Of a stretch of DNA of 31,159 bases, positions 601-26,956 are shown one piece after another. Each line of letters opens with the position of its first letter. Within the stretch, counting starts at the first letter, position 1. Location: positions 1 through 31,159 of the IMG/VR virus record IMGVR_UViG_3300009526_000037. One strand, given 5' to 3'. The notes beneath the pieces are model-generated. The model had not been told where the DNA came from. It searched no databases and saw only the letters and a list, made by a program, of their open reading frames with translations. Source of the DNA: a virus. The translations under genes and the position numbers were made by a program.

Positions 601-1050
601 ATGAGCACACTAGAGAAAAAAATCTATGCAGAAATAACTGTTCCTGGTAATAAAAAAATAGAAGCAGTTAGTTCTAAAACAACCTACCGTGGACTTAGTA
701 CAGTTAATCCTGATAATAGCTCCTATAAGCTGTTTGATATTGCATTAATTAAGCAAGATTTGATTAATCATTTTCACATTCGTCAAGGAGAAAAACTAAG
801 CAATCCTGAATTTGGTACAATTATATGGGATGCACTTTTTGAACCCCTAACTGATACACTGAGAGATGCAATTACAAATAACGTCACTCAAATTATTAAT
901 AACGATCCACGTACTAACGTTGATAGTATTTTAATTGATCAGTACGAAAAGGGAATACAAATAGAATGTACTATAACATATCTTCCGTTTAATATTTCAG
1001 AAACGTTACGTATGCGGTTTGACGAAGATGCTGGCTTTTTAAAGACCTAG
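601..1050 (+). CDS. 25: Baseplate wedge subunit gp25-like (GPW/gp25 family)
   Basis: This 149-aa protein belongs to the GPW/gp25 family of baseplate wedge proteins, which bind gp6 and gp53 in the inner baseplate and link it to the sheath. The core is visible at about residues 55-95: IRQGEKLSNPEFGTIIWDAL, then FEPLTDTLRDAI. This is the family pattern of a start-up segment, a conserved EP and an amphipathic helix. The remainder (NDPRTNVDSI, then a beta strand and FNISETLRMRFD) fits the family C-terminal beta part. The length is close to T4 gp25 (132 aa). The start has AAGG ten bases upstream (587-590). It stands between the PAAR tip and gp6, as expected for T4-like phages. Confidence 0.9.
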   Translation: MSTLEKKIYAEITVPGNKKIEAVSSKTTYRGLSTVNPDNSSYKLFDIALIKQDLINHFHIRQGEKLSNPEFGTIIWDALFEPLTDTLRDAITNNVTQIINNDPRTNVDSILIDQYEKGIQIECTITYLPFNISETLRMRFDEDAGFLKT

Positions 1051-1104: not shown

Positions 1105-4100
1105 ATGTCAACAACAGATAGACAAAATAGGTTATTGTTAGCAGAAGACTGGAAGCGGGTTTATCAGTCATTTCGTAATGCAGATTTTCAAAGTTACGAC
1201 TTTGACAACCTACGCCGTACGATGATTAATTATCTTCGAGAGAACTATCCTGAAGATTTTAACGATTATATTGAATCAAGTGAATACTTAGCTATCATTG
1301 ACTTAATTGCATATATGGGTCAAAATATATCATTCCGTATCGATTTAAATGCAAGAGAAAACTACTTAGAATTAGCAGAACGTAGAGAGTCTGTTTTACG
1401 ATTAGCTAGACTGCTTTCTTACAACCCCAAGCGTAATCAAGCAGCAAACGGCTTGTTAAAAGTCGAAAGTGTTAATACTTCTGAAGAAGTATTAGATTCT
1501 AATAATACTAATTTATCAAATCAGACTGTAGTATGGAATGATCCAACAAATCCTAATTGGTATGAGCAATTTATTAAAGTAATAAATTCAGCATTACCTG
1601 CTAATGCAAAATACGGTCGTCCTATTAAAAAAGATACAGCTGACGGTATTCCAACAGAACAATATCGTATAATTAGCACTAATACAGAAGTTCCTGTATA
1701 TAGTTTTTCTAAAAATGTAGACGGCAGAGCAGTAAGATTTGAAATTGTTTCAACTGACATATCAAATACAGTAATTGAGGAGGAAGCTCCGTTCCCCGGG
1801 AACAATTTTGCATTCTTGTTTAGAGATGATGGCAGAGGAAATGCAAGTAGTAATACAGGATTTTTTAGTCACTTTAGAGAAGGTTCAATTGACGAAGGTG
1901 TTTTTAGTATAAACACTCCTAGTACTAACCAGGTTGTTGCTATTGATGCTACTAATGTTAATAATAGTGATGTATGGTTATATAAATTAGATTCGTTTGG
2001 AAACGAAAATGAGCTTTGGACTAAAGTAGAAGCTGTTGAAGGTAATAATGTAGTTTATAATAGTTTAAGTAAGAATATAAGAAATGTTTATTCTGTATTA
2101 ACTAGAGTAGATGATAGAATTAGCTTAATGTTTTCTGATGGTGTATTTGGAAACTTACCAAAAGGTAGTTTCCGTGTATTTTATCGAGTAAGTAAGAATG
2201 AAAGAGTTATTATTACTCCAGACGATATGAGAGGAATAACTGTAACAATTCCTTACTTGTCATCTTTAAATAAAGTTGAAACTTTAACCATTACTTACGA
2301 ATTAAAATACACAGTTGACAACTCAACAACTAGTGAAACAAACGCAAGTATTAAACAAAATGCTCCGTCAACTTACTATACTCAGAATAGAATGGTAACT
2401 GCTGAAGATTATCAAATATCTCCATTAGGTGTTAGTCAAGAAATTATTAAAGTTAAATCTATTAACAGGACGTCGAGTGGCATTTCTAGATATTTTGATT
2501 TAATAGATGCTACAGGAAAGTATAGTAAAACCAGCTTATACGGAACTGACGGAATTTTATACAAAGAAAATTTAGAACCTAAAACAACTTTTAGTTTTGT
2601 TACTAAAACAGACATTGAAGGAGCAATAGTTAATACTATAAACCCTATATTAAATAACAAGAAATTAAGAAATTATTATTATAATAATTTTCCTAAAATT
2701 TCTACAATTGACTTAGGAATTACATGGACACAGTCAACTAAGGCTACAAATTTAAGTACAGGGTATTTTAAAAATTCAGCTGATATAACTTCGCAATTAG
2801 GAACATTTACTTCGTCGTTACTAAAATTAATAGTTCCGGGATCATTAGTTAAATTTTTACCACCAACAGGACAAAGTTTTCTTAATACTGATTTAGTATC
2901 CACAGTTGGGTATCAAGGTAAAAAAGGAGTTGTTGATTATAAGTGGGTTAAAATAGCTGCCGTTACAGGAGATGGCACTATAGTTGCTAGTACCGGAGCA
3001 GGACCAGTTTCACTTAATGACATTATTCCAACAGGTGCTAAGTTATCTGAAATTAGATTAGGAATTTCGTCAACATTACAAGCTGATGTTTCAACACAGT
3101 TAATTGATCAAGTATTTGCTTATAAAACGTTTGGCTTAAGATATAGCACAGATACAAAGTCCTGGAGAATTATTACAGAAAACAATCTAAATACAGCCGC
3201 CGCATTTAGTACAGGTAAAACTGGTGATATATCTAATCAGCAATTAGATGCAAGCTGGTTATTACTATTTGAAACAAATGGTGAAACTTATACAGTTAAA
3301 AATAGAGCTATGCGATATATTTTTGAAAGTGATCAAGAAATACGGTTTTACTTTGATTCTACAGATAAAATTTATAATAATCTAACAGGAAAAATTGTTA
3401 AAGACAAAATCAGCATATTAAACATAAACACACAACCAGATAGTGCATCACCGTTTACTGTTAACTATGACTGGGAGCTTACTGAAGAATACAGAGACGG
3501 CGAAGGCTATGTTGATAGTAAAAAGATAGAAGTTTCTTTCTTTGATACAGATGACGACGGTGTAGTAGATGATCCAGATATATTTGATACTGTAGTTGAT
3601 GAATTAACTAATCCGTTAACAAAATATATATTCCAGAAAAAAGTTACTACAACTGATGGCGTTGAAGATTTTAATTTTGTTAGTACAACAACACTAGGTA
3701 TACTTGTACTTGGATCAGCAACATCTTTAGCTCCTCTAAGTACATATACTAACGGTCAACTATTTTACTTTACGTCAACTGATGTATTTAAAACTTATGA
3801 CAGTACGTCAGGGTATTTAACACAAACAACTGATTATAGAGCAAGAGTAGGAAGAGATCAAATTACTTTCCATTACATTCATGGAGCAGATGACAGCTCA
3901 AGGATTGACCCAAGTGCAAGTAATATTATTGATACATATATTTTAACTAAAGGGTATGATACTGATTACAGAGCGTACTTAAACGGTGTAGGTAAATTAC
4001 CATTACCTGCTAGTTCTGACACATTGTTTCTTTCGTATAATACTGAGTTATCTAAGATCAAGTCACTTAGTGATGAAATAATTTATCATCCAGTTAAGTA

Positions 4101-4524
4101 CAAAGTATTATTTGGATCAAAGGCAGCCGTCGATTTGCAAGCAACATTTAAAGTAGTTAAGAACCCAGATCTTGTTCTTAATGATAATGATATTAAGTCA
4201 AGAATTATTGCAGCAATTAATCAATATTTTGCACTAGAAAATTGGGACTTCGGCGATAAGTTTTTCTTTTCAGAAATGGCAAACTATGTAATGTCTGAAC
4301 TTGCACCAGACGTAGTAACGTTCTTATTAATTCCAAATCAGTCAGAACAAGTATTTGGTAGTTTGTTTGAAATTAAAGCTGAAACAGATGAAATTTTTAT
4401 TAGCGGAGCAACAGTTGATAATATTCAAATTATTGATGCAGTTACAGCTAATAGATTAAAAGCTATAGGCGGTGAAGTTATAACAAGTAGTGTAACAATA
4501 TCCTCAGGTATACAAAGTGTTTAA
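1105..4524 (+). CDS. 6: Baseplate wedge protein gp6-like, enlarged
   Basis: The 1139-aa product is the gp6 wedge protein, which forms the inner ring of the T4 baseplate and joins neighbouring wedges. The N-terminal section (about residues 23-120) is the typical marine T4-like gp6 opening: FRNADFQSYDFDNLRRTMINY, NDYIESSEYLAIIDLIAYMG, RIDLNARENYLELAERRES and LARLLSYNPKRNQ. The middle has the gpJ/gp6 core with SDGVFGNLPKGSFRVFYRVS and the NAPSTYYTQNRMVTAEDYQ motif. The C-terminal end (QATFKVVKNPDL through MSELAPDV) is the conserved dimerising part. T4 gp6 is 660 aa, so this one carries a large extra section, roughly residues 470-960. Within that section lies an acidic calcium-loop-like segment, DTDDDGVVDDPD (814-825). 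The start has AAGGA eight bases upstream and a late-promoter-like motif. Confidence 0.93.
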   Translation: MSTTDRQNRLLLAEDWKRVYQSFRNADFQSYDFDNLRRTMINYLRENYPEDFNDYIESSEYLAIIDLIAYMGQNISFRIDLNARENYLELAERRESVLRLARLLSYNPKRNQAANGLLKVESVNTSEEVLDSNNTNLSNQTVVWNDPTNPNWYEQFIKVINSALPANAKYGRPIKKDTADGIPTEQYRIISTNTEVPVYSFSKNVDGRAVRFEIVSTDISNTVIEEEAPFPGNNFAFLFRDDGRGNASSNTGFFSHFREGSIDEGVFSINTPSTNQVVAIDATNVNNSDVWLYKLDSFGNENELWTKVEAVEGNNVVYNSLSKNIRNVYSVLTRVDDRISLMFSDGVFGNLPKGSFRVFYRVSKNERVIITPDDMRGITVTIPYLSSLNKVETLTITYELKYTVDNSTTSETNASIKQNAPSTYYTQNRMVTAEDYQISPLGVSQEIIKVKSINRTSSGISRYFDLIDATGKYSKTSLYGTDGILYKENLEPKTTFSFVTKTDIEGAIVNTINPILNNKKLRNYYYNNFPKISTIDLGITWTQSTKATNLSTGYFKNSADITSQLGTFTSSLLKLIVPGSLVKFLPPTGQSFLNTDLVSTVGYQGKKGVVDYKWVKIAAVTGDGTIVASTGAGPVSLNDIIPTGAKLSEIRLGISSTLQADVSTQLIDQVFAYKTFGLRYSTDTKSWRIITENNLNTAAAFSTGKTGDISNQQLDASWLLLFETNGETYTVKNRAMRYIFESDQEIRFYFDSTDKIYNNLTGKIVKDKISILNINTQPDSASPFTVNYDWELTEEYRDGEGYVDSKKIEVSFFDTDDDGVVDDPDIFDTVVDELTNPLTKYIFQKKVTTTDGVEDFNFVSTTTLGILVLGSATSLAPLSTYTNGQLFYFTSTDVFKTYDSTSGYLTQTTDYRARVGRDQITFHYIHGADDSSRIDPSASNIIDTYILTKGYDTDYRAYLNGVGKLPLPASSDTLFLSYNTELSKIKSLSDEIIYHPVKYKVLFGSKAAVDLQATFKVVKNPDLVLNDNDIKSRIIAAINQYFALENWDFGDKFFFSEMANYVMSELAPDVVTFLLIPNQSEQVFGSLFEIKAETDEIFISGATVDNIQIIDAVTANRLKAIGGEVITSSVTISSGIQSV

Positions 4525-4538
4525 TTGGAAGAACAAAA

Positions 4539-7500
4539 ATGGCATTTGACAATAATCAAAAAAGCGGTACTGGCGATAAAAACGCCAAGCGAAAAACTGA
4601 AGACCACTTACCGAGATATTTTAGGACCACTCCTAATAGTAAATTCTTAGCAAGCACTTTAGACCAACTAGTACAACCAGGAAGTGTTGAAAAGTTAAAT
4701 GGGTATTTTGGTAGAGAAAACGCAACCTCTTTTAATAAAGATGACAACTACATTGGCGATGTTTCAGTAAACAGGGCTAATTATCAGTTTGAACCAGCTG
4801 TTGTAATTAAAGATAATTTAAACACAGTAAAATTCTACAAAGATTATAATGATTATATGAATCAATTAACTGGATTTAATCCGTTAATTAAAGATCATAG
4901 CATTACTAATAAACAGGAATATTATAGTTGGAACCCCCATATTGATTGGGATAAATTTATTAATTTTAGAGAGTATTATTGGTTGCCAAGCGGACCGCAA
5001 ACTGTTGGCGTAGCTGGACAAACTACAGACGTAGTAAGCACATATACGGTTTCACTAGCTGATAATGATGATAATTTTGGATACGTTTTTTCACCAGACG
5101 GCCTAACCCAAAACCCTACTATTAAATTATTTAGAGGTATTACATATAAGTTAGATATTAATACTCCGGGATTGCCATTTACTATTAGAACAAAACGAGA
5201 TTTAGATGATGCGTTTTTACTACCAGCTACACAGCAAATAGATAATCAGGGCACTGAAAGTAGTACTATAACATTTACACCAGGATCAGATACACCTGAC
5301 ATATTATACTATGTTGCTGATAATGATATTAATGCTGCAGGCTTAATAAAAGTTGCTAACATAGAAGAAGCATCAGCAATTGATATTGATGCAGAAGTGT
5401 TAGGAAAAAAGACGTACACTACTGGCACTGGATTTAGCTTAACTAACGGGATGAAAGTTAATTTTATTGGTGAAGTAACTCCTGCAAAATATGCAATAGG
5501 TGAATATTATGTTGAAGGTGTTGGAGACAAGATTGTTCTTATTAAAGAAGATGAACTAACAGTTCCTAGTGCATTTGTTACAAATCAAGATATTAAGTTT
5601 GATGCACAAGGATTTGATAGACAACCTTTTGATACTGCTATTGGTTATCCTACAGTACGAGATTACTCGTTAATTAATCGTTCTGCTAAAGATGGAAACT
5701 TATGGAGTAGATATAATAGATGGTTCCATAAGTCTGTTATAGAACAGAGTGCAACATTAAATAACCAACCAATTAGTGTAGACGAATCAGCAAGAGCAAA
5801 GCGTCCAATTGTAGAATTTGAAGCAGGACTAAAGTTATTTAATTTTGGTACTGCAACTAAGAAAAATGTTAATTTATTAGATACACACACAACTGATGTG
5901 TTTTCAATAATTGAAGGCAGTTCCGGATATAATATTGACGGAGTAGACTTAATAGATGGAATGCGAATATTATTTACAGCAGATCCTGATGTATTAGTTA
6001 ATGGTAGAATATTTGAAGTTAAGTTCTTTGCATTTGATGGACCAGAAATTGAAGTTGACCAAACTGTTCAACAGATATCTTTAATTGATGTAACAGATAC
6101 ACTTCCTCTAATTGACGAAGTTGTTTTAGTAACACAGGGTGATAGTTACAAAGGGTTAATGTATCATTTCACTGGTACAAAATGGATACAAGCACAAACA
6201 AAAACTAAAGTTAATCAACCTCCATTGTTTGATTTATATGATGAAAATAATGTTAGTTATAGTGATACTATAGAATATAATTCAACGTCATTTAAAGGTA
6301 ACAAAGTCTTTAGTTATAAAGAAGCAGAAATTGGAAAAGTTGATGTTGAGTCAGGAGTTGTCTTATCTTATAGAACTATAACAAACGTAGGTGATATTAC
6401 ATTTAGCTTTAATTTACTATCAGACTACTTTGAATATTTAATTGGTAGCCAACTATATTATAAAAATACGGATGTTGGATTTCTTCGAAACTATTCTAAC
6501 AGAACAACTTATAAAAATGCCAACGGTTGGCAAAAAGCACCCACGGATAGTAAACAACCTGTTATAAGACAGTATGTATTTGATGATACTACGTCTGTAT
6601 TTGATGTAGATGTTTATGAAAATAGCGCCAGTCTTGCAGATTTATCTGTTAGTGTATTTTTAAATAACAACTTAACTTTTAAAGATGTTGATTATACATT
6701 AGGTATTTCAGCTAACAATGCAACAACAATTACATTTTTAAAACCTGCATTTACTTCACTAACAGGATTAACTAATGGTGACAAAGTTACAATTAAAACA
6801 ACTTCGTTAGCAGTTAAAAATGACAATGGATATTATGATTTTCCAAGCAACTTAGAAAGAAACCCGTTAAACAATAATATTGGAGAATTTACATTAGGCG
6901 AAGTAAACAATCATGTAACTAGTATTGTTGAAGATTTGACAGATTTTGTAGGCAAGTTTCCAGGAGCAAGTAATTTAAGAGACCTAGGCAATGTGTCTAA
7001 GTTTGGTAATCGTTTTATAAAGCATAGTTCGCCACTAAACTTAGCAATGTATAGTGTATTAGATAAAGAATCAAATTTAATATCTGCAATAAGATTTGCA
7101 GGAACCGAGTACGGAAAGTTTAAAAGATCGTTTTTACAGGTTTCTAATACGTTAGGATGGCAAGGCCCGGTTAAAGAGCACGTTGATAGGATTTTAGCAG
7201 AATTAAATAAAGATAAAATAAATTCAATGCCGTTCTATTTTTCCGATATGGTCCCACAAGGTTCTGTTAAAAGAACTACACACGAAGTTGACGACAATAC
7301 TCAGGAATATTTTTTACTTTCAAAAGCATTTAGTTTAGATACTCCTAATAGAGATTCAGCACAAGTTTATTTAAATGGAATTCAACTAACGCACGGTAAA
7401 GACTATACATTTAATAGTGAGGGGTTTTGTAGAGTTACTAAAACTAAAACCAAAGGCAACTTGCTTGATATTTACGAATACGAAACTACAAACGGAAGTT

Positions 7501-10500
7501 ATGTTCCAGCAACACCAACTAAGTTAGGGTTATATCCTGCTTATGAACCTAGTATGTACCTAGACAACACTTTCCAAACTCCAGTAAACGTAATTCAAGG
7601 ACACGACGGTAGTATTGTAGTAGCATTTAATGACTACAGAGATGATTTAATATTAGAGCTAGAAAAAAGGATTTATAATAATTTAAAAGTTAAATATGAT
7701 CCTGCTTTATTTAATATACATGATTTTAAAGGCGGAGAATATAGACTTACTGAGTTTACTAAATTACAAGTAGATTCGCCAATGCTAACAGATTTTATGC
7801 AATGGACTAAATTAGTCGACGGAGATTATACACTTAACGATTTCTTTAATAGAACAAATTCCTGGACTTTTAATTATGCAACTATGCAATCGCCTAACGG
7901 TTCAATTCTTCCAGGATTTTGGAGAGGTGTATATAACGAAGCATATGACACTGACAGCCCGCATACTCGACCATGGGAAATGTTAGGATTTTCAGTAATG
8001 CCAATTTGGTGGGGAACAACATATGGCCCAGCGCCTTATACTAAAGACAATTTAGTCTTGTGGACAGATCTACAAAATGGTGTTGTTAGAGAGCCTAAGA
8101 AAAAAATTAAGATTTTAAAAAATTATAAAAGGCCCGGGTTATTAGAGCATTTGCCAGTAGACGAAAGTGGCAATTTATTAAGTCCAAATGATTCTGGATA
8201 TGCCCAAAATTTTAATACAAGTAATTTAAACGAATCGTTTAAATTTGGTGATGAAGCTCCGACAGAAACAGCTTGGAGACGTAGTAGCCAATACCCATTC
8301 TCGTTAATTACTAGTTGGACACTTACACAACCTTCAAAAGTATTAGCTACTGGGTTTGATAGAGTTAGGCAAGTTAGAAATTTAACAAAGCAAATTATAT
8401 ATAAGTCTACTAATAATCAGTTAACATTAAAATCGTTAATTTATCCAAACACATTTTTAGACACTACGCAGACATTTACATCAGGATTAGTAAATTATGT
8501 AGCAGACTTTTTATCATCTAGTGTTGTCTTAAGCTATGCAGAATATAAAGATAATTTAAAATCAATAACAAATCAGATTGGATTTAAAGTTGGCGGATAC
8601 ACTGATAAAAATAAATTTAAGTTAATCTTAGATAGTAGAACACCGTTAAATGAAGGAAACGTTTTTGTACCTGAAGAAAATTATAGTGTGTTTCTTAATA
8701 AAAGTTCTCCGGTAAAGACAATTAATTATAGCGGAGTAATGATTGAAAGAAGAACCAACGGCTATAAAATTAAAGGTTACGATAATGTAACTCCGTCTTT
8801 TACCTATTTTCTACCACATGAAAAAGATAACGATCCTGTAATCACAGTTGGTGGAATATCAGATCCACTTTTAGAGTTTGAAAGCGGTCGTTTTTATTCT
8901 TCAGGAGTAGTTGTTGAACATTCCGGAGTCTATTATAGAGTAACAAAGTCGCATACCGCCGGAACTTCGTTTAATTCTGATAATTTTGCAACATTGCCAA
9001 AATTACCAGTCACTGGTGGACGCGAAGTTATTTTAAGAAGAGAGTTTGCATTATTTTCTCCAATAGAATTAAAATACGGAACTATATTAAAAACAATACA
9101 AGAAGTAGCAGACTTTTTACAAGGATATGGAAAGTATCTTGAATCAATTGGATTTGTATTTGATCATTACCGAGCAACTGATATAGTAGTCGATAGTTGG
9201 GAAACATCAGTAAGAGAATTTGCATTTTGGTCTTTACATAACTGGTCAGAAGGAACTTTAATAAGTGTAAGTCCTGCAGCATCTGAATTAAAACTTAATT
9301 CTTCTTATATGGTCGCTGATAATATCTTTGACACATTCTTTGGGTATACTTTACTTAAAGTTGACGGGAAAAAACTTACAGAAGATTTTGTACAACTAGA
9401 TAGACAGGAGCCAAATCAGTTTATTCTAAGACCTAAAAATACTGCTGATGGTATATACGCAATAAAAATTCCATTAGTGCAAAAAGAACATGTAGTATTA
9501 TTAGATAATAAAACTGTGTTCAGCGATATTATATACGATCCTGAGCCTGGTTATAGACAAGAAAGAATTAAAGTTCTTGGGTACAGAACAACTAATTGGG
9601 ACGGAAGTCTTAATATTGAAGGATTTGTTTATGATCAAGCTCCAATAACTTCTTGGCTTCCAAATAGAGATTACTTTATTGGCGACATTGTTAAGTGGAA
9701 AGAATTTTATTATACTGCCAATGTAAAAGTGCCCGGCACTGAAACATTTAATACAACCTTATGGAATAGGTTAGATGAAAAACCAGAAGCTGGATTAACT
9801 CCAAACTTTGAATATAAAACTAATCAATTTGCAGACTTTTACGATTTAGATAGTGACAACTTTGATTCAGAACAACAAAAGATGGCACAGCATCTAATTG
9901 GTTACCAAAAAAGAAAATATCTAGAAAACATTATTAATGATGATGTTAGTCAGTATAAATTTTATCAAGGGTTTATACAAGACAAAGGATCAAAGAATGC
10001 ACTAACTAAACTATTTGATGTATTAGGAAGTTCTGATAAAGACAGTTTAGAATTTTACGAAGAGTGGGCAATCAAAAGAGGACAATACGGAGCAGCAGAT
10101 GGATTTGCAGAAGTTGAATATAAGTTAGATGAATCTAAATTTAGATTGTCGCCACAGCCAATTGAATTAGTAAAAAGTACCACTAGCGAAGAAACTGATT
10201 TAGTGTATCGAATTCTACCACACGAAGCTTACTTAACTCCAGAAGATTATGATCATAGTCCGTTTCCAACAAAATACATTGCACCGGAGCAAGGGTATAT
10301 TAAAGATAGCGGATTTGTAAACCAACAAGATGTAAAATTTATTGTTAACACAGTTGACTCAATATTAGATATTGACTTTGCAACTTGTAATCGAAATGAT
10401 CTTATATGGGTAGGCAACGATAAGCTAACTTGGAATATATATAGGCACGATGATACTGATTTTAAAATTGAACAGGTTATAGGAGGAGAAACAGAATTTA

Positions 10501-13500
10501 CAGTAGTTCTACCATCCACTCCGCAGAACATTAAATCAGGTGATATTTTTGGAGTTTACGATTTAATTTCAACAACATTAGATCCAGGCGATAGTACTTT
10601 TGCAAATGCTCAAACTACTAAAGCAGCAATTGGTGCGTTTTTTAAAGTTAAGTCTATAAGTTTAGAAAAGGTTACATTTGAAACTACAGAGACAGTAGAC
10701 GATATTGATGAGTGTGTTGGACGATTAAGTAAGCTAGTTTCCGTTAGAACAGATAACTTATTAAACTTAAATGATATAGCACAAAAATTAGCAAATACTA
10801 AATCGTTGTTTTGGGTTGATGATGCACAAGATAACGGTTGGAGAGTTTACGAAAACACAGAAGCGTTTACAAAGTTACAAGGTATTAGTAGTGGCACCAG
10901 CATTGATAATAAAACCTTTGCTAAAACAATGTCGGCAAATAACAGTAATACTATTATGGCTGTAGGATCACCAGACGAAGATGACGGAAAAGTTTATATT
11001 TACACAAGATCAACTAATAGTGGAAACTATATTTTATCACAAACATTAGAAGCACCCACACTAACAGTAGACACATTTAAACGTTTTTATGAAGGGCTAT
11101 CTTATAGCGTTGGAGACCAAGTAAAGTTTGCTGATAAGTTTTACCAGGTTACTGATGCACATATTGGCGACGAGTTCTTCAACGCAGCGAAGCATTCGTT
11201 ACTAACCCAACCTAGTTTACAAAAGTTTGGCGCAAGTGTTGGTATGTCAGACGATGGCAAATATTTAATTATTGGGTCACCAGAAGCAAGTAAAGTAAAA
11301 ACAAATTATAAAAATACGTACGAGCCTACTCAAGCGTATGTAGCAGGTGACATTGTTTCTTATAATAATCTATTATGGAAATCTACTACATCAATTGTTC
11401 CTGAATCTGATAGTATACAGTTTACTAGTTTTAGTAGCGTAGCACAACAGATTGAAGCAGTTGGAAATACTACTCAAGCTTCGGAACAGATTGATATTTT
11501 ATTTACAGGTAAGTATCCATTTACTGGTATAACTGTTGATCATGTATTAGTCCGAGCACCTAAATTAATGTATGCAGGTATTGACACAGGTGACACTGTT
11601 AAGTTAAAGTGGAACTCAAAAACAATAGCTAATCAAAATCAAACAACGTATACTAATTTAGCACCATTTGCTGGAAGCGGTATAGATGCACTAGGTTCTA
11701 ACTTCTTTACAGGTGAACATGTAGTTCAAATGAAAGTTGATTTAGTTTTACAAATCATTGCTTTTACTAATCAACAAGCAGCTGGCCAAGCAATCCGAAC
11801 ACAAACTGGTACAGGTACTGTTACATATTCTTACGAAGTTGACGGCAGTATTGGATTGTATATTAATAACATAACAGGAACTTTTGCCGCATCTGATAGT
11901 TTGTTTTTAGCTAATGGAGACTTTGTAGGAGAATATTGGACGGCGGCGCCGGCTGAAACACTTAATGTTAATAGTTATTATGGCGGTTACTGGATGATAG
12001 CAGTTCCAGGAAGCTATCAGATATTTTCAACTACATCTGATGAAGGTAGAGGATTAGTTTATCAAGAAGCAGTAACAGATAGTTCAACACCAACAAATTA
12101 TTATTATAATTCAAGAGACTACGAAACAACAACAGTGTCGAGTGAAGACACAACAGCAAGTTACATATATTCTTTAAGTAGCCAAGGATTTCCTGGTCCA
12201 TCGGGAGTTACTACTCCAATATTAAGCAGATACTATGTAGTAAGAGCTCCAAAAAGTCTTACTGATACATTAGCAGTAGCAAGTACATTTAAATTTTATG
12301 TTCCAGGATTAGCAAGATATAGTACTGGTATTGCAAATGATCCAGCAACACTAGGGTTATCGTATGCCGGAGTTAATAAAACATTAACAGTAGCAGCACT
12401 ATGGGACGGGTATATAAAGTTTCAATTCACAAAGTTTAACTTATTTGGAGAACCGTTTGAACCTAGGATAGGAGACATTGTTAGAGACGTAACAACTGGA
12501 GCAACAGCCAAAGTTGAATTTTATCAAAGAGATGCGTTAAACGCAACAATATTTGTTACAGCCGTTACTGGAAACTTTTCAAACGGTTCAAACTTTTTTA
12601 ATAACGCTGAAATAGAATACTTAGGCACTCCTACTGATCCAAGTCCAATATACCAAGTTAATCGTGTTATGGGAGAAATTCAAGCTAAGTCACTAGGGTT
12701 ACCTGCAGAAGGCATTGGAAAATTAATTTTAGTTGATTCTGGAGAGTTAATACCGTTAGTAAGTACTCAAAACTCAACAGATTTTGAGTACTGGTTTTAC
12801 GAAGAGAATATAGTTCAAGGTGTTCCGTTATCTGCAAATATTCCTACGACGTTAAACAATGATTGGACTAACGTTTATAGCATTCCTGTTATTGAAGGAG
12901 CAACAGCAAGTTCTTTAACACGACAAGGCATGTATACTATTTACAGTGGATTAAATTCTAGTAGATTTACTTCTGTTGCGTCATATATAGTTCCAGAAGC
13001 AACTAATGATTTTTACTTAGGTTCTGAAGTTGCAATACGAAAATCAAATGAGTTATATAGATCATTTATAAGTGCAGGAAAATCTTTTAATGACCTAAGA
13101 GCATTTAGCACATCAGGTAAAGATGAAGATGATAGTACATATATGCGAGGAAGAGTTTATTTTATTAAGAATGGTACTGACATTGACGGTAATGTATGGG
13201 ATTGGGAGCTAGGAAAAGATAAAAAATTCCAAGGAGAGTTTTCTAATATAGTTTCATATTCAACTAACGATATTGTATATATTAACGGATCAATTTTTAA
13301 AGCAAATACTAATTTATCTGCAGGAGTATTTAACGGACTTGAATGGACACAACAAACTACTCCGGTCGATTACTTAGGATATGTTCCTAATAATACTGAA
13401 ATATTACCAATATTTGATAGCGCCGATCCAAGTACTGTACTTGATCAAGACGGATTGTATAATTTTGATAGCATAAGAATTTCTCAAAACGGAGAGGTAC

Positions 13501-16500
13501 TAATTGCAAAGATTAGATATAAGGGCCAGTCAGCTAGTGGCCCTAATAGACGGGGTGTTGTAGTTTATAGAAATTATAACGGCAATTATCAAAGACATCA
13601 AACTATATTAGCTGATCAGTTTGATCAATCGTTATCTGCTGATGGTATAAACGCACAGCTTGCGAATGTGTTTGCTGCTGATATTGATATTAGTAAAGAT
13701 GGAACTATGTTGGCTATTAGTGAACTTGCAGCTGAAGTGAAACGTACCGACGAAGACCCAACACTAGTTACAAAAGATCAGGGTAGAGTATTTTTATTAA
13801 AACAGAGTTCATCAACAGGATTTTTTGAATATAGTCAAACGCTATATAGTAGAAATAATGAACCAGTAGAATTCTTTGGAACTTCGTTATCCTTTGACAA
13901 CACCACATTAGCAATATGTGCTAAGAATGCTGACTCAAAAAGTAATACAACTTTTGATACTAATGCACTAAATGTACCGCAAACAACATATGATAATAAC
14001 TTTACATTGTTTACTAAAAAATATATTGATACTGGGGTAGTTTATCTTTATGAAAGCGTTAACGGTACACTAGTGTACGGTCAAACGCTAACTTATATTA
14101 ATGATGATTCATCCTTATCAGCAGCTAACACTAATGCTCTTAATTCAGTTAAAGATTTTGGTATAAACTTATATGCAAATAATAATCACGTATACGTTGG
14201 ATTACCAACTGAGACAGTCCTTGACGGCACAAATGGCGCTGTGATTGACTTTAGAAAAGTTGACGGAACTAGTATATGGAAAACACATGCTTCTCCTAAA
14301 AATACAGTTGACGTTGCTAAAATTAAAAAACTACAACTGTATGATACAAAGGAAAATAAATTAGTTAAGTATCTTGATTACTTAGATCCAATCCAGGGTA
14401 AAATTGCAGGTATTGCTGAACAAGAACTTTCTTATAAACTATATTATGATCCAGCAGTTTATACAAATGGCAATACAGAAGTTAATGTCGGGTTGTCTGA
14501 TATTTGGGGAGCTGAACAAGTTGGTCAATTATGGTGGGATCTATCAACTGCTAAGTTTTTAAATCCATACCAAAGCAACATTATTTTTAGTACTAATAAT
14601 TGGAACAAACAATTCCCTTCAGGCAACTCAATAGATGTATACGAATGGGTTGAAAGCAATTTACTTCCATCAGAATGGAATGCCATTGCTGAAACAGAAG
14701 AAGGAGTTACTGAAGATATAACAGGTATTACAAAGTACGATGATACTGTTTATTCTATTGTTAATGTGTTTGATTCAATAGCACAGAAGTTTTCAGCAAA
14801 GTATCATTATTGGGTTAAAGGAAAAATAACAGCACCTAATATTGAAGGAAGAACTATTAGTAGTTTTAACGTAGCTCGTTATATTGATGATCCAGCAGGC
14901 ATGGGGTATAAATTTGTTAACTTCTTAACTCCTAATAGTTTTGTTATACACAATTGTCGCAGTTTAATTAAAGATAAAGATGTAGCAATTAGCGTACAGT
15001 ACTGGACAATTGAGAATCAAGAAATTAATATACATAATCAATATCAATTGTTTACTGCTGGATTAGAAAGCAGTAAGCCTAATATAGATATTGAAAGAAA
15101 GTGGTTCGACAGTTTAATTGGTGTTGATACTTATGGTAGAGAAGTTCCTGATTCTACTCTTTCAGACAAAGAAAAATACGGAATTTTAAATAAGCCAAGA
15201 CAGTCGTGGTTTATTAATAGAACCCAAGCACTTAAACAAGTTATTGATAGAACTAACCTTGTATTAAAAGACCGATTAATAATTGATGATAAAATTATTA
15301 CACCGTTATTAAATAAAGATGCACCACCATTAGCTGCAACTAATATATTTGACTTGTCAGTAGATACGTTTGAAGATTTAGAATTTGTAGGCGCTGCAAA
15401 AGTGTCACAAGCAGTGTTAACTCCAGTAATAGTCGATGGAAAGATTGTTAGAGTTACTATTACCGACGCAGGTAGAGGTTATAAAGTTGTTCCTACAATA
15501 ACACTTACTGGAACTAATGAAACAGCTGCAGAGTTTACTATTACGTTAAGTAACGTAGGTTCGGTTACAGGAGTAACTATTGATAATCAAGGAAGCGGTT
15601 ATTCTGAAACAGCTACTACGTTAGAAGTTAGAAGATTTACAGTTCTTGTTAAGAGCGATTCAACACTTAATGGTAAATGGTCATTATACGATAGAAATAT
15701 AAAAAATACTGACTGGGTAAGAAAACGGAGCCAAGCGTATGATACTTCAGCGTATTGGAGTTACATTGACTGGTATGGCACAGGATATAATGAATTTACA
15801 ACTATTGATCATTTAATTAGTTCTAGCTATCAATTAGAGTCATTGGATGACAGCACTGGCAATGTAGTTAAGATAGAAAACATTGGATCAGGTGGCTGGT
15901 TATTATTAGAAAAGATTGACAATTCTAACTCCATTGATTATACAATAAATTATAAAACAATTGGTAGACAAAATGGAACAATCAAAATTCTTCCAAGTTT
16001 ATATGATGTTACTGCTACTATAGGGTACGATACAGCAAGTTTTGATATAACTGTTTATGATACACAACCTTTTCAAGAAACAAGAATAATTCTTGAAACA
16101 ATACGAGATAACTTGTTAATTGATGAGTTAGCAATTGAATATAATAATTTATTTTTATCAAGTATAAGGTATGTATTCTCGGAACAGGGATTAGTTGATT
16201 GGGCATTTAAAACAAGTTTTATAAAGGCAAAGCATAATGTTGGTAACTTAACTAAGAAGAAAACGTTCCAGAACGATAACTTGCCTAGCTATGAGGAATA
16301 CTTAAAAGAAGTTAAACCGTTTAAGTCTAAGTTGCGTGAATACATAAGTGACTATGAATACCTAAATACTTCAGGAGTGTTAGTAACTGATTTTGATTTA
16401 CCGCCAAGATGGGATGACACACAAAAAGCAATTATTCCGCAGGCTGTAAAAGTTATAGATAATACTATTGTAGGAACAAATGCAGATTTAAACACATACC

Positions 16501-19500
16501 CAAATAAAAATTGGGTTGATAACATGTCTTACCAAATTAAAGAAATTAAAATAGCCGATGGAGGAAGCGGATATACACAACCTCCTGTTATTAATTTTGT
16601 AGGACAAGACCTAAGTTCAACAGAAACAGGTTCAGGAGCGACAGCTATAGCAAGATTAGGCACCGGCGGAAAGATAGAATCTGTTGAAGTTACTGCCTCC
16701 GGTACTGGTTATTTAAATCCACCAACTGTTGAGATTAACGGTTCTATATCGGCTAACGGTAAACCGGCTAGACTAATAGCAATTCTTGGCAACGGTTTAG
16801 TAAGAGGTATGCATTCTACTATAAAATTCGATAGAGTAACAGGAGCCTTTGTTGTAACTAACCTTAGTCAAAGTGAAACGTTTGCTGGAACCGAAAGTAC
16901 ATATGTTTATAATCTTATATTTCCAATGGATCTAAACACAAACAAATTAGAAGTTACTATTGCTGGAGAACTTTCACTACAAAGTGAATATACATATGAA
17001 AATGTATTAGATGTTACTAAAGGATATGATAGATATTTTGGTAGAATTACATTTACTATACCTCCTAAACTAAACAGTGTAATAGTAATTAAGTATAAAA
17101 AACCAGTAGAATTTTTAAGTGCTGCAGATAGAATTAGCTTATTTTATGATCCAGTAGCTGGTCAATTTGGTAACGACTTATCACAAGTAATGGACGGAAT
17201 TGATTACGGTGGCGTTGAAGTTAAGAGCTTTGAATTTGGTGGCAGCACTGGCTGGGACGCATTACCGTGGTTTACTGATTCATGGGATACATATGATACA
17301 ACATACGAAGATGAAGTATTTAAATTAGACGGCTCCACAATTTCAATTACATTAAGTTCGCCGTTAGCAACCGGAGTTGTTTATAATTTATACAGAAATG
17401 GAATTAGATTAGATGATCCAAATTGGACACTAGCATTTGATTCTACTGTAATTAAAAACCTTAATGCTATAATGCAAAGCATCACTGGAGACGGCACAAC
17501 TACTGTTATTGATTTACAAGAGTTAGGTGTTCCAACACAAGCTGATGATATTATAGTAGTAAGAAAAGTAACAAGTGATGGTAGCTTTATTAATGATCCA
17601 GAAAGTTATGACACATCAGTATCAGGTGGTAATCTTGCATATACTTCTGCTACAGGGTTAAAAGCTGAAGACATTACAATAGACGGCGACGGATTTGTTA
17701 CACCAACTACCAGTAAAGGACCGGAAGAGATTGTTCCAGGACAAGTATTAGACACTGTTGATATTGCAGTATACGAAAGACCAACAGGCGGAAGTAGTAT
17801 AATTGTTAATAGGAATCACATAGGCGATGGATCCACAAAAACTTTTGATGCTGGTAAGACACCGTTTACTGCTAGTTCAATGTTTGTCAAGGTTGATGGT
17901 GTTATATTTGAACCAACTACTGACGATTCAACGTTAGGATATACAGTAAACTATGCAAATAAAACAGTAGACTTTACAACAGCACCGGCTGACAATGCTC
18001 GAGTTAACTTAACAATGGTTGAGCCGTCAGGATTACAAATATTAGATATTGATAACTTTATAAGTGACGGCAGTTCTAATACATTTGAAACAAATGTACG
18101 ATGGACAGATAATGTTGAAGCAATAGCATCTAGCAATGGCAAGAAGTTAGATATTGTAATTGTTAAGAGTACAGGCGCTCGTCCTAACAATGTTGAACTT
18201 GTGTTAGCATCTCCGTTAGCCGCAGGCGATGTTATTAGATACTCAGTGTTTATTGGAGACGGAAATGATATTGATTCGTTCAGTCAAGTTATAGTTGACG
18301 AATTTGTTGAAGGCAGTGCAAACGGATTTGTTAAAGATGGCGATCAACATTTTATGACATTAAGTCAAGCACCATTTTCATATGGCCCAGCTGGCATTCA
18401 TACTCTTGTACAAGTAGGCAATAGGATATTACATTCTGGTTATAATAAACAGTTTACAGTATCAGATGCTAGAGAGTACAAATTAGATTTATGGCAAGTT
18501 CCTTTAGCAACGGTTCAAAATTCAGCAATTGAAGTATATCTTAATGGAGCTAAGTTAGATTATACAATAGGCTGGTCCTTTATCGGAGCAGAAAAGTTTG
18601 ATAGTGACACTCCTTTAGATCAACAAATAGGAAGTACAATAAAACTTACTGATAATGTAGGTAATGCAGGTGACACTTTATTAGTGTACCTTATTACAGA
18701 AAGTGAATACTTATTTGGTGCATTTGAACAGCAGGGTTCATCTACAGTATTTGTTCCAACACCAGGTATAGTTTCTTTTAATGACTTATTTCCATCTAGA
18801 GTTGATGGCGAAAAAGTAAAAGTGTATCAATTTAGTAATAGTAAATCACAAAGGTTTGAAAGAGAATCATATACAGTTACTGAAAAAACGCCAATTACTA
18901 AAGGCTCTGCAGAATACTATTTCTTAAATAACTTAAGAGCTGGATTATTTAAATTAAGATCTCCAGCACTTGATTCAAAATATGTTTGGGTTATACTAAA
19001 CGGAACTTTATTAGATGCAGATATTGATTACAGTGTTACTGAAGATAACAAATATGTTAAACTTGTAAGTCAGCTTAATGAGAATGACAGAATTGAAGTT
19101 TTACACTTTGGAAATCCTACAGTTATAGCTAAGTTTGGATGGCGACAGTTTAAAGATATGCTTAACAGAACGCATTATAAAAGAATAGACGGCGCCAAAG
19201 ATTACAAACTTGCTAAAGATTTAAAACCGCATGATAAAATTATTGAGTTATTAGATGCATCTGGCATAACAAATCCTACAGCAGGGTCAGAGTATCCAGG
19301 AATTATATGGGTCAACGGAGAAAGAATAGAATATAGAATTAAAGACGGTAATTTATTAAAACAATTACAAAGAGGAACATTAGGCACTGGCGTATTAGAT
19401 ATTTACACTCACGGAACAGAAGTATACGACCAAAGCATTAACTATTCAATGCCGTATAAAGACGAAACACTTAGTACAATATTTACAGCAGATGGTACTA

Positions 19501-19838
19501 GTACTGCATTTGAATTAGACTTTACGCCAGGTGATAGCGGAGTAAATGAATTTGAAGTATTTGTAGGAGGAAGGCGCCTAAGAAAGACTGCTATATCTTC
19601 TTATAAATTTACTAACAGTATAGCACAAGATAGCCCAGAAAATGATGAAACATTACCAGCAGAATTTTCATTATTAAGTAATACACTAACGCTATTAACA
19701 GCTCCTGTAGAGAATCAGAAGGTTATTATAGTTAGAAAACAAGGAAAACAGTGGACAAGTCCGGGAACAACATTAAGTAAGGCAGATTCGGATATTGGCA
19801 GATTCTTAAGAGCTGCAAGTGTTGACTTACCTCGATAA
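4539..19838 (+). CDS. Giant 5099-aa mosaic virion protein in the gp7 position (putative baseplate/tail structure)
   Basis: One frame of 15.3 kb runs without a stop. It follows gp6 by 14 bases, with GGAAG upstream of the ATG. Position, size and beta-rich composition indicate a virion structural protein, probably of the baseplate. Visible parts, in residues: conserved opening 23-150 (HLPRYFRTTPNSKFLAS, HIDWDKFINFREYYWLP); cupredoxin-like module about 190-273 without Cys or His at the end where metal ligands would lie; CBM5/12-like modules near 1446, 1705, 2183, 2261 and 2897; a helical segment 1777-1851 (FYQGFIQDKGSKNALTKLF) weakly recalling the T4 gp7 C-terminal part; propeller-like repeats about 2127-3250; GSGY-type repeats near 3641, 3681, 4004 and 4051; GDGSTTxF-type beta domains from about 4314; and IIWVNGERIEYRIKDGNLL near 4910. 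T4 gp7 has 1032 aa, so an orthologous core could only be a small part. No signal peptide, intein or frameshift is seen. Confidence 0.88.
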   Translation: MAFDNNQKSGTGDKNAKRKTEDHLPRYFRTTPNSKFLASTLDQLVQPGSVEKLNGYFGRENATSFNKDDNYIGDVSVNRANYQFEPAVVIKDNLNTVKFYKDYNDYMNQLTGFNPLIKDHSITNKQEYYSWNPHIDWDKFINFREYYWLPSGPQTVGVAGQTTDVVSTYTVSLADNDDNFGYVFSPDGLTQNPTIKLFRGITYKLDINTPGLPFTIRTKRDLDDAFLLPATQQIDNQGTESSTITFTPGSDTPDILYYVADNDINAAGLIKVANIEEASAIDIDAEVLGKKTYTTGTGFSLTNGMKVNFIGEVTPAKYAIGEYYVEGVGDKIVLIKEDELTVPSAFVTNQDIKFDAQGFDRQPFDTAIGYPTVRDYSLINRSAKDGNLWSRYNRWFHKSVIEQSATLNNQPISVDESARAKRPIVEFEAGLKLFNFGTATKKNVNLLDTHTTDVFSIIEGSSGYNIDGVDLIDGMRILFTADPDVLVNGRIFEVKFFAFDGPEIEVDQTVQQISLIDVTDTLPLIDEVVLVTQGDSYKGLMYHFTGTKWIQAQTKTKVNQPPLFDLYDENNVSYSDTIEYNSTSFKGNKVFSYKEAEIGKVDVESGVVLSYRTITNVGDITFSFNLLSDYFEYLIGSQLYYKNTDVGFLRNYSNRTTYKNANGWQKAPTDSKQPVIRQYVFDDTTSVFDVDVYENSASLADLSVSVFLNNNLTFKDVDYTLGISANNATTITFLKPAFTSLTGLTNGDKVTIKTTSLAVKNDNGYYDFPSNLERNPLNNNIGEFTLGEVNNHVTSIVEDLTDFVGKFPGASNLRDLGNVSKFGNRFIKHSSPLNLAMYSVLDKESNLISAIRFAGTEYGKFKRSFLQVSNTLGWQGPVKEHVDRILAELNKDKINSMPFYFSDMVPQGSVKRTTHEVDDNTQEYFLLSKAFSLDTPNRDSAQVYLNGIQLTHGKDYTFNSEGFCRVTKTKTKGNLLDIYEYETTNGSYVPATPTKLGLYPAYEPSMYLDNTFQTPVNVIQGHDGSIVVAFNDYRDDLILELEKRIYNNLKVKYDPALFNIHDFKGGEYRLTEFTKLQVDSPMLTDFMQWTKLVDGDYTLNDFFNRTNSWTFNYATMQSPNGSILPGFWRGVYNEAYDTDSPHTRPWEMLGFSVMPIWWGTTYGPAPYTKDNLVLWTDLQNGVVREPKKKIKILKNYKRPGLLEHLPVDESGNLLSPNDSGYAQNFNTSNLNESFKFGDEAPTETAWRRSSQYPFSLITSWTLTQPSKVLATGFDRVRQVRNLTKQIIYKSTNNQLTLKSLIYPNTFLDTTQTFTSGLVNYVADFLSSSVVLSYAEYKDNLKSITNQIGFKVGGYTDKNKFKLILDSRTPLNEGNVFVPEENYSVFLNKSSPVKTINYSGVMIERRTNGYKIKGYDNVTPSFTYFLPHEKDNDPVITVGGISDPLLEFESGRFYSSGVVVEHSGVYYRVTKSHTAGTSFNSDNFATLPKLPVTGGREVILRREFALFSPIELKYGTILKTIQEVADFLQGYGKYLESIGFVFDHYRATDIVVDSWETSVREFAFWSLHNWSEGTLISVSPAASELKLNSSYMVADNIFDTFFGYTLLKVDGKKLTEDFVQLDRQEPNQFILRPKNTADGIYAIKIPLVQKEHVVLLDNKTVFSDIIYDPEPGYRQERIKVLGYRTTNWDGSLNIEGFVYDQAPITSWLPNRDYFIGDIVKWKEFYYTANVKVPGTETFNTTLWNRLDEKPEAGLTPNFEYKTNQFADFYDLDSDNFDSEQQKMAQHLIGYQKRKYLENIINDDVSQYKFYQGFIQDKGSKNALTKLFDVLGSSDKDSLEFYEEWAIKRGQYGAADGFAEVEYKLDESKFRLSPQPIELVKSTTSEETDLVYRILPHEAYLTPEDYDHSPFPTKYIAPEQGYIKDSGFVNQQDVKFIVNTVDSILDIDFATCNRNDLIWVGNDKLTWNIYRHDDTDFKIEQVIGGETEFTVVLPSTPQNIKSGDIFGVYDLISTTLDPGDSTFANAQTTKAAIGAFFKVKSISLEKVTFETTETVDDIDECVGRLSKLVSVRTDNLLNLNDIAQKLANTKSLFWVDDAQDNGWRVYENTEAFTKLQGISSGTSIDNKTFAKTMSANNSNTIMAVGSPDEDDGKVYIYTRSTNSGNYILSQTLEAPTLTVDTFKRFYEGLSYSVGDQVKFADKFYQVTDAHIGDEFFNAAKHSLLTQPSLQKFGASVGMSDDGKYLIIGSPEASKVKTNYKNTYEPTQAYVAGDIVSYNNLLWKSTTSIVPESDSIQFTSFSSVAQQIEAVGNTTQASEQIDILFTGKYPFTGITVDHVLVRAPKLMYAGIDTGDTVKLKWNSKTIANQNQTTYTNLAPFAGSGIDALGSNFFTGEHVVQMKVDLVLQIIAFTNQQAAGQAIRTQTGTGTVTYSYEVDGSIGLYINNITGTFAASDSLFLANGDFVGEYWTAAPAETLNVNSYYGGYWMIAVPGSYQIFSTTSDEGRGLVYQEAVTDSSTPTNYYYNSRDYETTTVSSEDTTASYIYSLSSQGFPGPSGVTTPILSRYYVVRAPKSLTDTLAVASTFKFYVPGLARYSTGIANDPATLGLSYAGVNKTLTVAALWDGYIKFQFTKFNLFGEPFEPRIGDIVRDVTTGATAKVEFYQRDALNATIFVTAVTGNFSNGSNFFNNAEIEYLGTPTDPSPIYQVNRVMGEIQAKSLGLPAEGIGKLILVDSGELIPLVSTQNSTDFEYWFYEENIVQGVPLSANIPTTLNNDWTNVYSIPVIEGATASSLTRQGMYTIYSGLNSSRFTSVASYIVPEATNDFYLGSEVAIRKSNELYRSFISAGKSFNDLRAFSTSGKDEDDSTYMRGRVYFIKNGTDIDGNVWDWELGKDKKFQGEFSNIVSYSTNDIVYINGSIFKANTNLSAGVFNGLEWTQQTTPVDYLGYVPNNTEILPIFDSADPSTVLDQDGLYNFDSIRISQNGEVLIAKIRYKGQSASGPNRRGVVVYRNYNGNYQRHQTILADQFDQSLSADGINAQLANVFAADIDISKDGTMLAISELAAEVKRTDEDPTLVTKDQGRVFLLKQSSSTGFFEYSQTLYSRNNEPVEFFGTSLSFDNTTLAICAKNADSKSNTTFDTNALNVPQTTYDNNFTLFTKKYIDTGVVYLYESVNGTLVYGQTLTYINDDSSLSAANTNALNSVKDFGINLYANNNHVYVGLPTETVLDGTNGAVIDFRKVDGTSIWKTHASPKNTVDVAKIKKLQLYDTKENKLVKYLDYLDPIQGKIAGIAEQELSYKLYYDPAVYTNGNTEVNVGLSDIWGAEQVGQLWWDLSTAKFLNPYQSNIIFSTNNWNKQFPSGNSIDVYEWVESNLLPSEWNAIAETEEGVTEDITGITKYDDTVYSIVNVFDSIAQKFSAKYHYWVKGKITAPNIEGRTISSFNVARYIDDPAGMGYKFVNFLTPNSFVIHNCRSLIKDKDVAISVQYWTIENQEINIHNQYQLFTAGLESSKPNIDIERKWFDSLIGVDTYGREVPDSTLSDKEKYGILNKPRQSWFINRTQALKQVIDRTNLVLKDRLIIDDKIITPLLNKDAPPLAATNIFDLSVDTFEDLEFVGAAKVSQAVLTPVIVDGKIVRVTITDAGRGYKVVPTITLTGTNETAAEFTITLSNVGSVTGVTIDNQGSGYSETATTLEVRRFTVLVKSDSTLNGKWSLYDRNIKNTDWVRKRSQAYDTSAYWSYIDWYGTGYNEFTTIDHLISSSYQLESLDDSTGNVVKIENIGSGGWLLLEKIDNSNSIDYTINYKTIGRQNGTIKILPSLYDVTATIGYDTASFDITVYDTQPFQETRIILETIRDNLLIDELAIEYNNLFLSSIRYVFSEQGLVDWAFKTSFIKAKHNVGNLTKKKTFQNDNLPSYEEYLKEVKPFKSKLREYISDYEYLNTSGVLVTDFDLPPRWDDTQKAIIPQAVKVIDNTIVGTNADLNTYPNKNWVDNMSYQIKEIKIADGGSGYTQPPVINFVGQDLSSTETGSGATAIARLGTGGKIESVEVTASGTGYLNPPTVEINGSISANGKPARLIAILGNGLVRGMHSTIKFDRVTGAFVVTNLSQSETFAGTESTYVYNLIFPMDLNTNKLEVTIAGELSLQSEYTYENVLDVTKGYDRYFGRITFTIPPKLNSVIVIKYKKPVEFLSAADRISLFYDPVAGQFGNDLSQVMDGIDYGGVEVKSFEFGGSTGWDALPWFTDSWDTYDTTYEDEVFKLDGSTISITLSSPLATGVVYNLYRNGIRLDDPNWTLAFDSTVIKNLNAIMQSITGDGTTTVIDLQELGVPTQADDIIVVRKVTSDGSFINDPESYDTSVSGGNLAYTSATGLKAEDITIDGDGFVTPTTSKGPEEIVPGQVLDTVDIAVYERPTGGSSIIVNRNHIGDGSTKTFDAGKTPFTASSMFVKVDGVIFEPTTDDSTLGYTVNYANKTVDFTTAPADNARVNLTMVEPSGLQILDIDNFISDGSSNTFETNVRWTDNVEAIASSNGKKLDIVIVKSTGARPNNVELVLASPLAAGDVIRYSVFIGDGNDIDSFSQVIVDEFVEGSANGFVKDGDQHFMTLSQAPFSYGPAGIHTLVQVGNRILHSGYNKQFTVSDAREYKLDLWQVPLATVQNSAIEVYLNGAKLDYTIGWSFIGAEKFDSDTPLDQQIGSTIKLTDNVGNAGDTLLVYLITESEYLFGAFEQQGSSTVFVPTPGIVSFNDLFPSRVDGEKVKVYQFSNSKSQRFERESYTVTEKTPITKGSAEYYFLNNLRAGLFKLRSPALDSKYVWVILNGTLLDADIDYSVTEDNKYVKLVSQLNENDRIEVLHFGNPTVIAKFGWRQFKDMLNRTHYKRIDGAKDYKLAKDLKPHDKIIELLDASGITNPTAGSEYPGIIWVNGERIEYRIKDGNLLKQLQRGTLGTGVLDIYTHGTEVYDQSINYSMPYKDETLSTIFTADGTSTAFELDFTPGDSGVNEFEVFVGGRRLRKTAISSYKFTNSIAQDSPENDETLPAEFSLLSNTLTLLTAPVENQKVIIVRKQGKQWTSPGTTLSKADSDIGRFLRAASVDLPR

Positions 19839-19861: not shown

Positions 19862-20476
19862 ATGACAGATAATTTTAATGATATGAACGGAGTGCTAATT
19901 CAAGGGCATATTAAGATTCATGACCCAGAATCTAATCACACGTACATTGACAAGCGTAATGCAATTCATTATGAAAATATGAGTTTAAGCCTTGCTGAAA
20001 GTATTGGCAACGGTGGCACAGGCTGGATATACGAAATGAGTTTTGGCAACGGTGGAACAAGCGTTGATCCTACAGGTATTATTACATATTTAACACCTAA
20101 CTCAACTGGTACAAATGCTAGTTTATACAGTCAAACACATACAAAGGTTATTGACGACAGGAGTGTAAATAATTTAGATCCTGTTAGAAATAAAATAGAA
20201 ACAAGACATGTAAGCGGTACAAATTATACTGATGTATTAGTAACATGTTTATTAGATTACAGTGAACCAAGTGGTCAAGATGCATACGATACAGCAACAG
20301 ACGGCACAAGTTTATATGTATTTGATGAATTAGGTTTAAAAGCCTATTCTGCAAACGGAACTGGACGACTTCTTACTCATGTTATTTTCCATCCTGTACA
20401 AAAGTCGCTTAATAGACTTATACAGATAGATTATACAGTTAGAGTACAAAGTTTAACTGGTTTTAATGAGGCGTAA
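19862..20476 (+). CDS. Conserved marine T4-like virion structural protein (204 aa)
   Basis: I recognise this as a small protein that recurs near the baseplate/fibre genes of marine T4-like phages, but no exact function is known to me. The markers are the opening DMNGVLIQGHIKIHDPES, then YIDKRNAIHYENMSLSLAES, the glycine-rich IYEMSFGNGGTSVDPTGIIT, and the end THVIFHPVQKSLNRLIQIDY. The sequence is soluble and beta-rich, without signal peptide, membrane segment or enzyme motif. It lies between the giant structural gene and the fibre paralogues, four bases from the next gene, so it may be a connector between baseplate and fibres; that is inference. A T4 counterpart such as gp53 or gp8 cannot be assigned from sequence alone. 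Confidence 0.85.
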   Translation: MTDNFNDMNGVLIQGHIKIHDPESNHTYIDKRNAIHYENMSLSLAESIGNGGTGWIYEMSFGNGGTSVDPTGIITYLTPNSTGTNASLYSQTHTKVIDDRSVNNLDPVRNKIETRHVSGTNYTDVLVTCLLDYSEPSGQDAYDTATDGTSLYVFDELGLKAYSANGTGRLLTHVIFHPVQKSLNRLIQIDYTVRVQSLTGFNEA

Positions 20477-24421: not shown

Positions 24422-24425
24422 TGTT

Positions 24426-24433: not shown

Positions 24434-24459
24434 CTTTAAATATTAGGGGTTAAAAAAAA

Positions 24460-26920: not shown

Positions 26921-26923
26921 TAA

Positions 26924-26936: not shown

Positions 26937-26956
26937 GTCAAGTAGTAGTTCCTTTG

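Follow-up and report, generated by a model that had tools for sequence, protein, structure and literature searches.

A 5,099-residue protein of the PHROG 10938 family at the gene 7 position of an uncultivated phage, with a predicted propeller inserted between conserved core blocks

In the T4 baseplate wedge a third subunit is required next to two copies of gp6. The locus described here raises the question of what fills this place when the gene that follows gp6 encodes not a protein of 1,032 aa, as T4 gene 7 does, but one of 5,099 aa. The window, i.e., the whole stretch of DNA analysed, is a 31,159-nt piece of an uncultivated phage genome (IMG/VR record IMGVR_UViG_3300009526_000037). Its plus strand encodes, in this order, a PAAR-like protein (289..582) and a gp25-like baseplate wedge protein (601..1050), both assigned by profile scan, a gp6-like baseplate wedge protein of 1,139 aa (1105..4524; phrog_10646, E 8e-295; T4-type gp6 phrog_219, E 4e-26), and the giant structural protein (4539..19838; PHROG 10938). 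Since T4 runs PAAR 5.4, gene 6, gene 7, the location of the giant corresponds to that of gene 7.

The giant frame begins with an ATG 14 nt past the gp6 stop, has GGAAGA located 8–13 nt 5' of this ATG, and runs through 5,099 codons without an internal stop, as a preliminary description of the locus had claimed; the computed mass and pI of the product are 569 kDa and 4.8. Long repeats were looked for within the gene at the DNA level and none were found, and a promoter and terminator scan over it gave counts not above those of shuffles. Measured against three close relatives (protein identity 77–83% at the N-terminus and 73–79% at the C-terminus), dN/dS is 0.13–0.20 for the full gene and stays under 0.3 in each measured segment, the middle (aa 1960–3250) being the fastest-evolving part in two of the three comparisons (~0.28). 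The frame is real and is evolving as a protein. That it might be an assembly join of several genes, which the preliminary description had named as one of the findings that would overturn its reading, is effectively excluded because in 36 of 36 related IMG/VR records, checked at both ends, the gene is one open frame of 4,412–5,633 aa without stops (some giants run off the contig end); isolate genomes, furthermore, carry annotated counterparts of 3,300–4,555 aa, and we assign this alternative practically no probability.

These counterparts place the giant in a defined family. Divided into four successive pieces, the protein matches PHROG 10938 in each (E 4e-145, 4e-110, 3e-53 and 2e-23), and all 15 core members match as well. 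The segment aa 1490–1960 matches 57 cultured-phage records (a few being genome fragments), all from jumbo-phage groups, i.e., RaK2-like, PA5oct-like, Atu_ph07, Phosso, SCTP-2 and Vibrio 2.275, and the core blocks of the window giant and the jumbo giants are collinear at 26–31% identity. The order gp6–giant, mostly with gp25 before it, recurs in Phosso (294; 4,555 aa), RaK2 (ORF070; 3,326 aa), PA5oct (gp355; 3,857 aa), Atu_ph07 (gp180; 4,449 aa), CBB (CBB_236; 3,340 aa), 121Q (gp582; 3,323 aa as annotated) and GAP32 (3,341 aa), and gp6 is present in 78 of 80 marine loci. The 3,771-aa giant of Vibrio 2.275 is preceded by a large CBM-annotated gene. Salicola phage SCTP-2 also has a PHROG 10938 giant (gp140; 3,807 aa), but its gp6 is located elsewhere, ~90 kb from its giants; directly 5' of gp140 lies another giant, 3,096 aa long (record L086, 8606–17896). 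On the other side, the window giant is followed by a conserved 204-aa protein (phrog_11259; 19862..20476, +), which comes next in 22 of 23 marine loci, the remaining contig stopping within the giant, and lies nearby in six of nine jumbo isolates. Among isolates, the closest relatives belong to the RaK2-like, PA5oct-like and Atu_ph07-like jumbo phages. The kinship to marine T4-like giant proteins suggested earlier holds insofar as marine contigs, all uncultivated, encode related giants, but not for isolates, where the nearest kin are jumbo phages and not Tevenvirinae.

The earlier designation as a structural protein is supported by detection of counterparts, at ~30% identity to the window giant, in virions. 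CBB_236 was identified by mass spectrometry with 21 peptides and adjoins the wedge protein CBB_237 (PMC5259590), and phAPEC6 gp245 (381.9 kDa), assigned as a counterpart by its size and gene neighbour and not by sequence comparison, was identified likewise with 17 peptides and adjoins the wedge protein gp244 (PMC7247149). The annotation of PA5oct gp355 also records detection by ESI-MS/MS. Papers on RaK2 and on the adsorption complex of Alcyoneusvirus do not name the giant under the terms searched.

Alignment of the window giant with 23 marine and nine jumbo relatives separates core from inserts, ~2,700 core residues being collinear with the jumbo-phage relatives. The N-terminal core block (aa 1–150, 4539..4988; LPRYFRT..FL..TLDQL) is conserved in marine and jumbo relatives, in agreement with the earlier remark that the opening resembles that of marine giants. 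It is followed by core blocks at aa 350–900 (5586..7238), aa 1000–1960 (7536..10418; helical towards its end) and, beyond the middle region, aa 3250–4020 (core block 2, 14286..16598). Stretches at aa 150–350, ~900–1000, 1700–1750 and 1960–3250 are absent from most jumbo phages, where the C-terminal 1,080 aa are also poorly conserved. The module at aa 151–350 (4989..5588), missing in most jumbo isolates, is shared with the C-terminal portion of a gp9-like connector from cyanophages (E 1e-11 to that of P-TIM68) and with cyanophage fibre proteins. Five modules of carbohydrate-binding family 5/12 were matched through Pfam or through profile comparison to each other, the first two at aa 1439–1486 (8853..8996) and aa 1700–1750 (9636..9788; not in jumbo isolates); PF02839 exceeds its cut-off of 26.2 with 52.7 bits for aa 1201–2400 and 40.1 bits for the pair at aa 2175–2290, and the three other single modules score below it. 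GGSGY-type modules are found at aa 3635–3697 (15441..15629) and, as a pair, at aa 3999–4094 (16533..16820). Profile self-comparison detects approximately nine related β-modules, chiefly in the C-terminal quarter, where they form a chain at aa 4110–5065 (16866..19733). A module in this stretch, at aa ~4851–4950, is weakly similar to N-terminal sequence of cyanophage giants (E 3e-4 and E 0.009), and GGSGY modules occur in many copies in cyanophage giants and also in Sinorhizobium phage phiN3, in the protein of gp7 size that follows gp6. From these sequence matches, modules seem to circulate among tail proteins across the T4 superfamily, in marine phages and others.

The middle of the chain had been described as a mosaic of modules, and this could be mapped. 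An AlphaFold model of aa 2060–3255, computed from 40 sequences (pLDDT 85.5, pTM 0.70), predicts a closed seven-bladed β-propeller (aa 2072–3239, 10752..14255) into which a block of ~600 aa is set behind blade 2. Searched against the PDB, the predicted propeller matches integrin α5 (E 1e-7, probability 1.0) and gives a Z score of 26 to Gβ and to integrin αM over 300–360 aligned residues, the first and last aligned residues being ~aa 2072 and ~3239. At 11–16% identity to the seven-bladed propellers of integrin α and FG-GAP proteins, this is a likeness of fold only, and the protein concerned, unlike integrin α, is a phage structural protein; the FG-GAP model PF14312 scores 22.2 bits against a cut-off of 23. 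The propeller of integrin α-I chains likewise bears an inserted domain. Blade repeats are recognized by profile self-comparison at aa 2106–2255 and aa 2970–3240. CBM5/12 module 3 (aa 2175–2224, 11061..11210) lies between blade repeats, module 4 (aa 2256–2290, 11304..11408) after blade 2, and the nested block (~aa 2291–2890, 11409..13208), which contains an internal duplication (aa 2351–2451 versus 2581–2682), is followed by module 5 (aa 2896–2930, 13224..13328).

The relatives form a series with respect to this site. The insert between core blocks 1 and 2 measures ~110–1,439 aa (median 630) in 186 loci, a few overlapping domain calls giving negative lengths that carry no meaning. Removal of near-duplicates reduced 181 loci to 115 clusters, 112 of them with a usable insert. 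Blades are found in 0 of 24 clusters with inserts shorter than 500 aa, in 38 of 44 with inserts of 500–1,000 aa, and in all 44 with inserts above 1,000 aa; the nested block is found in 2 of 44 and 43 of 44 of the latter two classes, respectively. An HMM search detected propeller blades in none of nine jumbo isolates, in contrast to the window giant, and their inserts at this site are short or consist of other modules. Judged from this insert-length series, with blade and nested-block HMMs built from the long form, the simplest order of gain would be core, then propeller, then the block inside the propeller, with loss as an alternative. What is new at this locus is the propeller-bearing build, found just in uncultivated phages.

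A giant at the gene 7 locus as such is already known, since proteins of this kind are on record in jumbo phages and in cyanophages. Among T4-like cyanophages, giants follow gp6 in P-TIM68 (gp086; 4,307 aa), ACG-2014f (4,225 aa) and MED4-213 (4,458 aa), lengths being taken from annotated coordinates; S-TIM4 (ORF_101; 6,603 aa) and S-ShM2 (6,198 aa) belong to the same similarity group, to which they were assigned by similarity and not by gene position. As cyanophage giants exceed it, the window protein with its 5,099 aa sets no record. Annotated structural proteins of 6,000–6,600 aa with many GGSGY modules are seen in S-RIM12, S-TIM4, S-ShM2, ACG-2014a and S-RIM8 (L325–L328 and L330). The cyanophage giants (PHROG 2885, 701 and 4406) share with the window giant the post-gp6 position where flanks could be read, the great size, the GGSGY module, a small β-module and a KG[ST] motif; they differ in that the collinear core was not detected in them, and in that the KG motif lies ~190–510 residues from their start, as opposed to aa 1816.

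This motif provides a possible sequence link to T4 gp7 (PHROG 964), which likewise follows gp6 and carries a short KG-helix motif. Residues 730–758 of T4 gp7 match PHROG 2885 at the KG motif (E 1.3e-4), and at FYxxKG[TSI] HHalign of T4 gp7 against PHROG 2885 reaches 95% probability (E 3e-8). When T4, cyanophage and phiN3 proteins are combined in one profile, its best place in the whole of the giant profile is aa 1811–1833 (around KGSKNALTKLF, E 0.017), within the KG[ST] helix motif region (aa 1803–1833, 9945..10037), and against this giant segment alone it gives E 9e-4, in register, over ~20–48 columns; column shuffles, 400 in one set and 200 in another, never reached these scores. The match appears to be real but short. 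A profile search against T4 gp7, which had been suggested earlier as a check, was thus negative in direct comparison (HHalign of six giant segments with a narrow set of 19 T4-gp7 sequences gave no signal) and positive for the combined profile at this short motif. The gp7 Pfam domains PF21427, PF21428 and PF21456, all three recovered in T4 gp7, have no match in the giant at E ≤ 1, and Tail_P2_I (PF09684, P2 gpI) has none in the window at E ≤ 10. The N-terminal LP..R pattern is in register with the gp7-like N-termini of cyanophages and phiN3, at a score not above shuffles. Nothing credible was retrieved from the PDB by phmmer with three long stretches or by hmmsearch with the core profile. An AlphaFold model of the core, made for the insert-poor relative L142 and not for the window protein, gave only common small folds with Z of 6 or less against the PDB (Foldseek, VIA), and its significant matches among viral predictions were just apparent members of its own family; as this model is multi-domain and of moderate confidence, the negative PDB search excludes nothing. 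Because the motif is short, the gp7 Pfam domains are unmatched and the fold searches are negative or return the own family, we file the giant under PHROG 10938 and not under the gp7 family. Direct homology to T4 gp7 is weakly supported by these sequence comparisons. The giant most likely functions like gp7, a link that draws on the ~20–48 aligned columns and on synteny.

Downstream lie genes for collar-type fibre proteins. The first (20481–22505) is split by one in-frame stop at codon 210 into 20481–21110 and 21282–22505, and its relatives are intact (671–724 aa); sequencing error, genuine disruption and readthrough are each possible. An N-terminal module, NF..LLENF....P...I.GQ[LI]W[YF]D, is common to three adjacent proteins (starts at 20481, 22505 and 24460; window 20481–25986) and is probably a common attachment domain for differing fibre tips. 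The third (24460–25986) ends in a weak Peptidase_G2 match below the cut-off (E 3e-4), possibly a self-cleaving chaperone tail. Two adjacent proteins of 302 and 340 aa (26012–28017) resemble a diverged tandem duplication; the 302-aa protein, the one of the pair that was scanned, has no PHROG or Pfam match. Beyond the tail genes, at 28432–31159, G+C falls to 0.28–0.29, and a putative run of glycosyltransferase-like genes starts there.

We consider it probable that the giant is the third wedge subunit and does the job of gp7, with its core on the gp6 dimer, in six copies, and with peripheral lobes. No other candidate lies at the locus, and neither gp8 nor a clear gp7 domain was found in the nine jumbo genomes, domain V (PF21427) giving no match there above cut-off. 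T4 gp7 itself is present in six copies per baseplate. We infer gp7-like contacts with gp6, six copies, an outward orientation and binding of glycans or fibres. The conserved blocks (aa 1–150, 350–900, 1000–1960 and 3250–4020) would pack on the gp6 dimer, six per baseplate. The propeller would have been spliced between two core blocks at one fixed site, and the ~600-aa block into the propeller behind blade 2, with CBM5/12, GGSGY and β-modules added internally and at the C-terminus. The added modules would form outward-facing lobes round the baseplate rim, which might bind cell-surface glycans through CBM5/12 or hold the collar-type fibre proteins encoded downstream. The wider proposal, that in marine jumbo-type phages the third wedge subunit is an expandable scaffold which took up the intact propeller first and the ~600-aa block later to give a sixfold nested receptor- or fibre-binding lobe, stands in our estimate at even chances. 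By our own estimate, six copies amount to ~31,000 residues in each virion, little compared with the capsid, and the heavy demand on late protein synthesis supposed earlier is not supported.

The giant could instead have arisen independently, as a protein of the baseplate periphery or of an appendage, the gp7 role being carried by another, unrecognised protein or missing. The lack of a gp7 Pfam domain and of a fold match, and the shortness of the motif match, would fit this; however, the protein lies behind gp6 in nearly all lineages examined, the KG motif is common to T4 gp7 and the cyanophage giants with the window family in register above shuffles, and gp7 domain V was not found elsewhere in the nine jumbo genomes, so that we judge an independent origin unlikely. 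The extreme length and modular build also call to mind a polyprotein, a single chain from which a phage protease would later release several structural proteins, and the virion peptides of the phAPEC6 and CBB counterparts span just 7–8% of the protein (PMC7247149, PMC5259590). The propeller, however, closes with strands that flank its own insert, so cuts inside it would not free simple units, and processing of this kind seems improbable.

The preliminary description had also envisaged either a chain extended over several hundred nanometres or a large lobed appendage. An extended fibre or whisker of hundreds of nanometres could draw on the C-terminal chain of approximately nine related β-modules and on the hairy filaments reported for phAPEC6 and CBB, but it is at odds with the conserved core blocks and the compact predicted propeller, and the gene sits among wedge genes with separate collar-type fibre genes downstream; we regard it as very improbable. 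A lobed baseplate periphery fits better than a long chain because the model of the middle is a compact closed propeller and the remainder looks like folded blocks and β-modules.

For most of the large virion proteins in jumbo phages and in marine phages of the T4 superfamily, the annotation is structural protein of unknown function. Grouping them as a single class that sits at the gp7 locus and combines a constant core with a mapped site for inserts gives a testable model of how the contractile baseplate grew, and the core boundaries can guide a search in baseplate maps of RaK2-like phages. The series from no propeller, through a propeller, to a propeller that holds the nested block clearly exemplifies how domains of a virion protein become nested by insertion; the mapped site also indicates where surface-binding modules get added.
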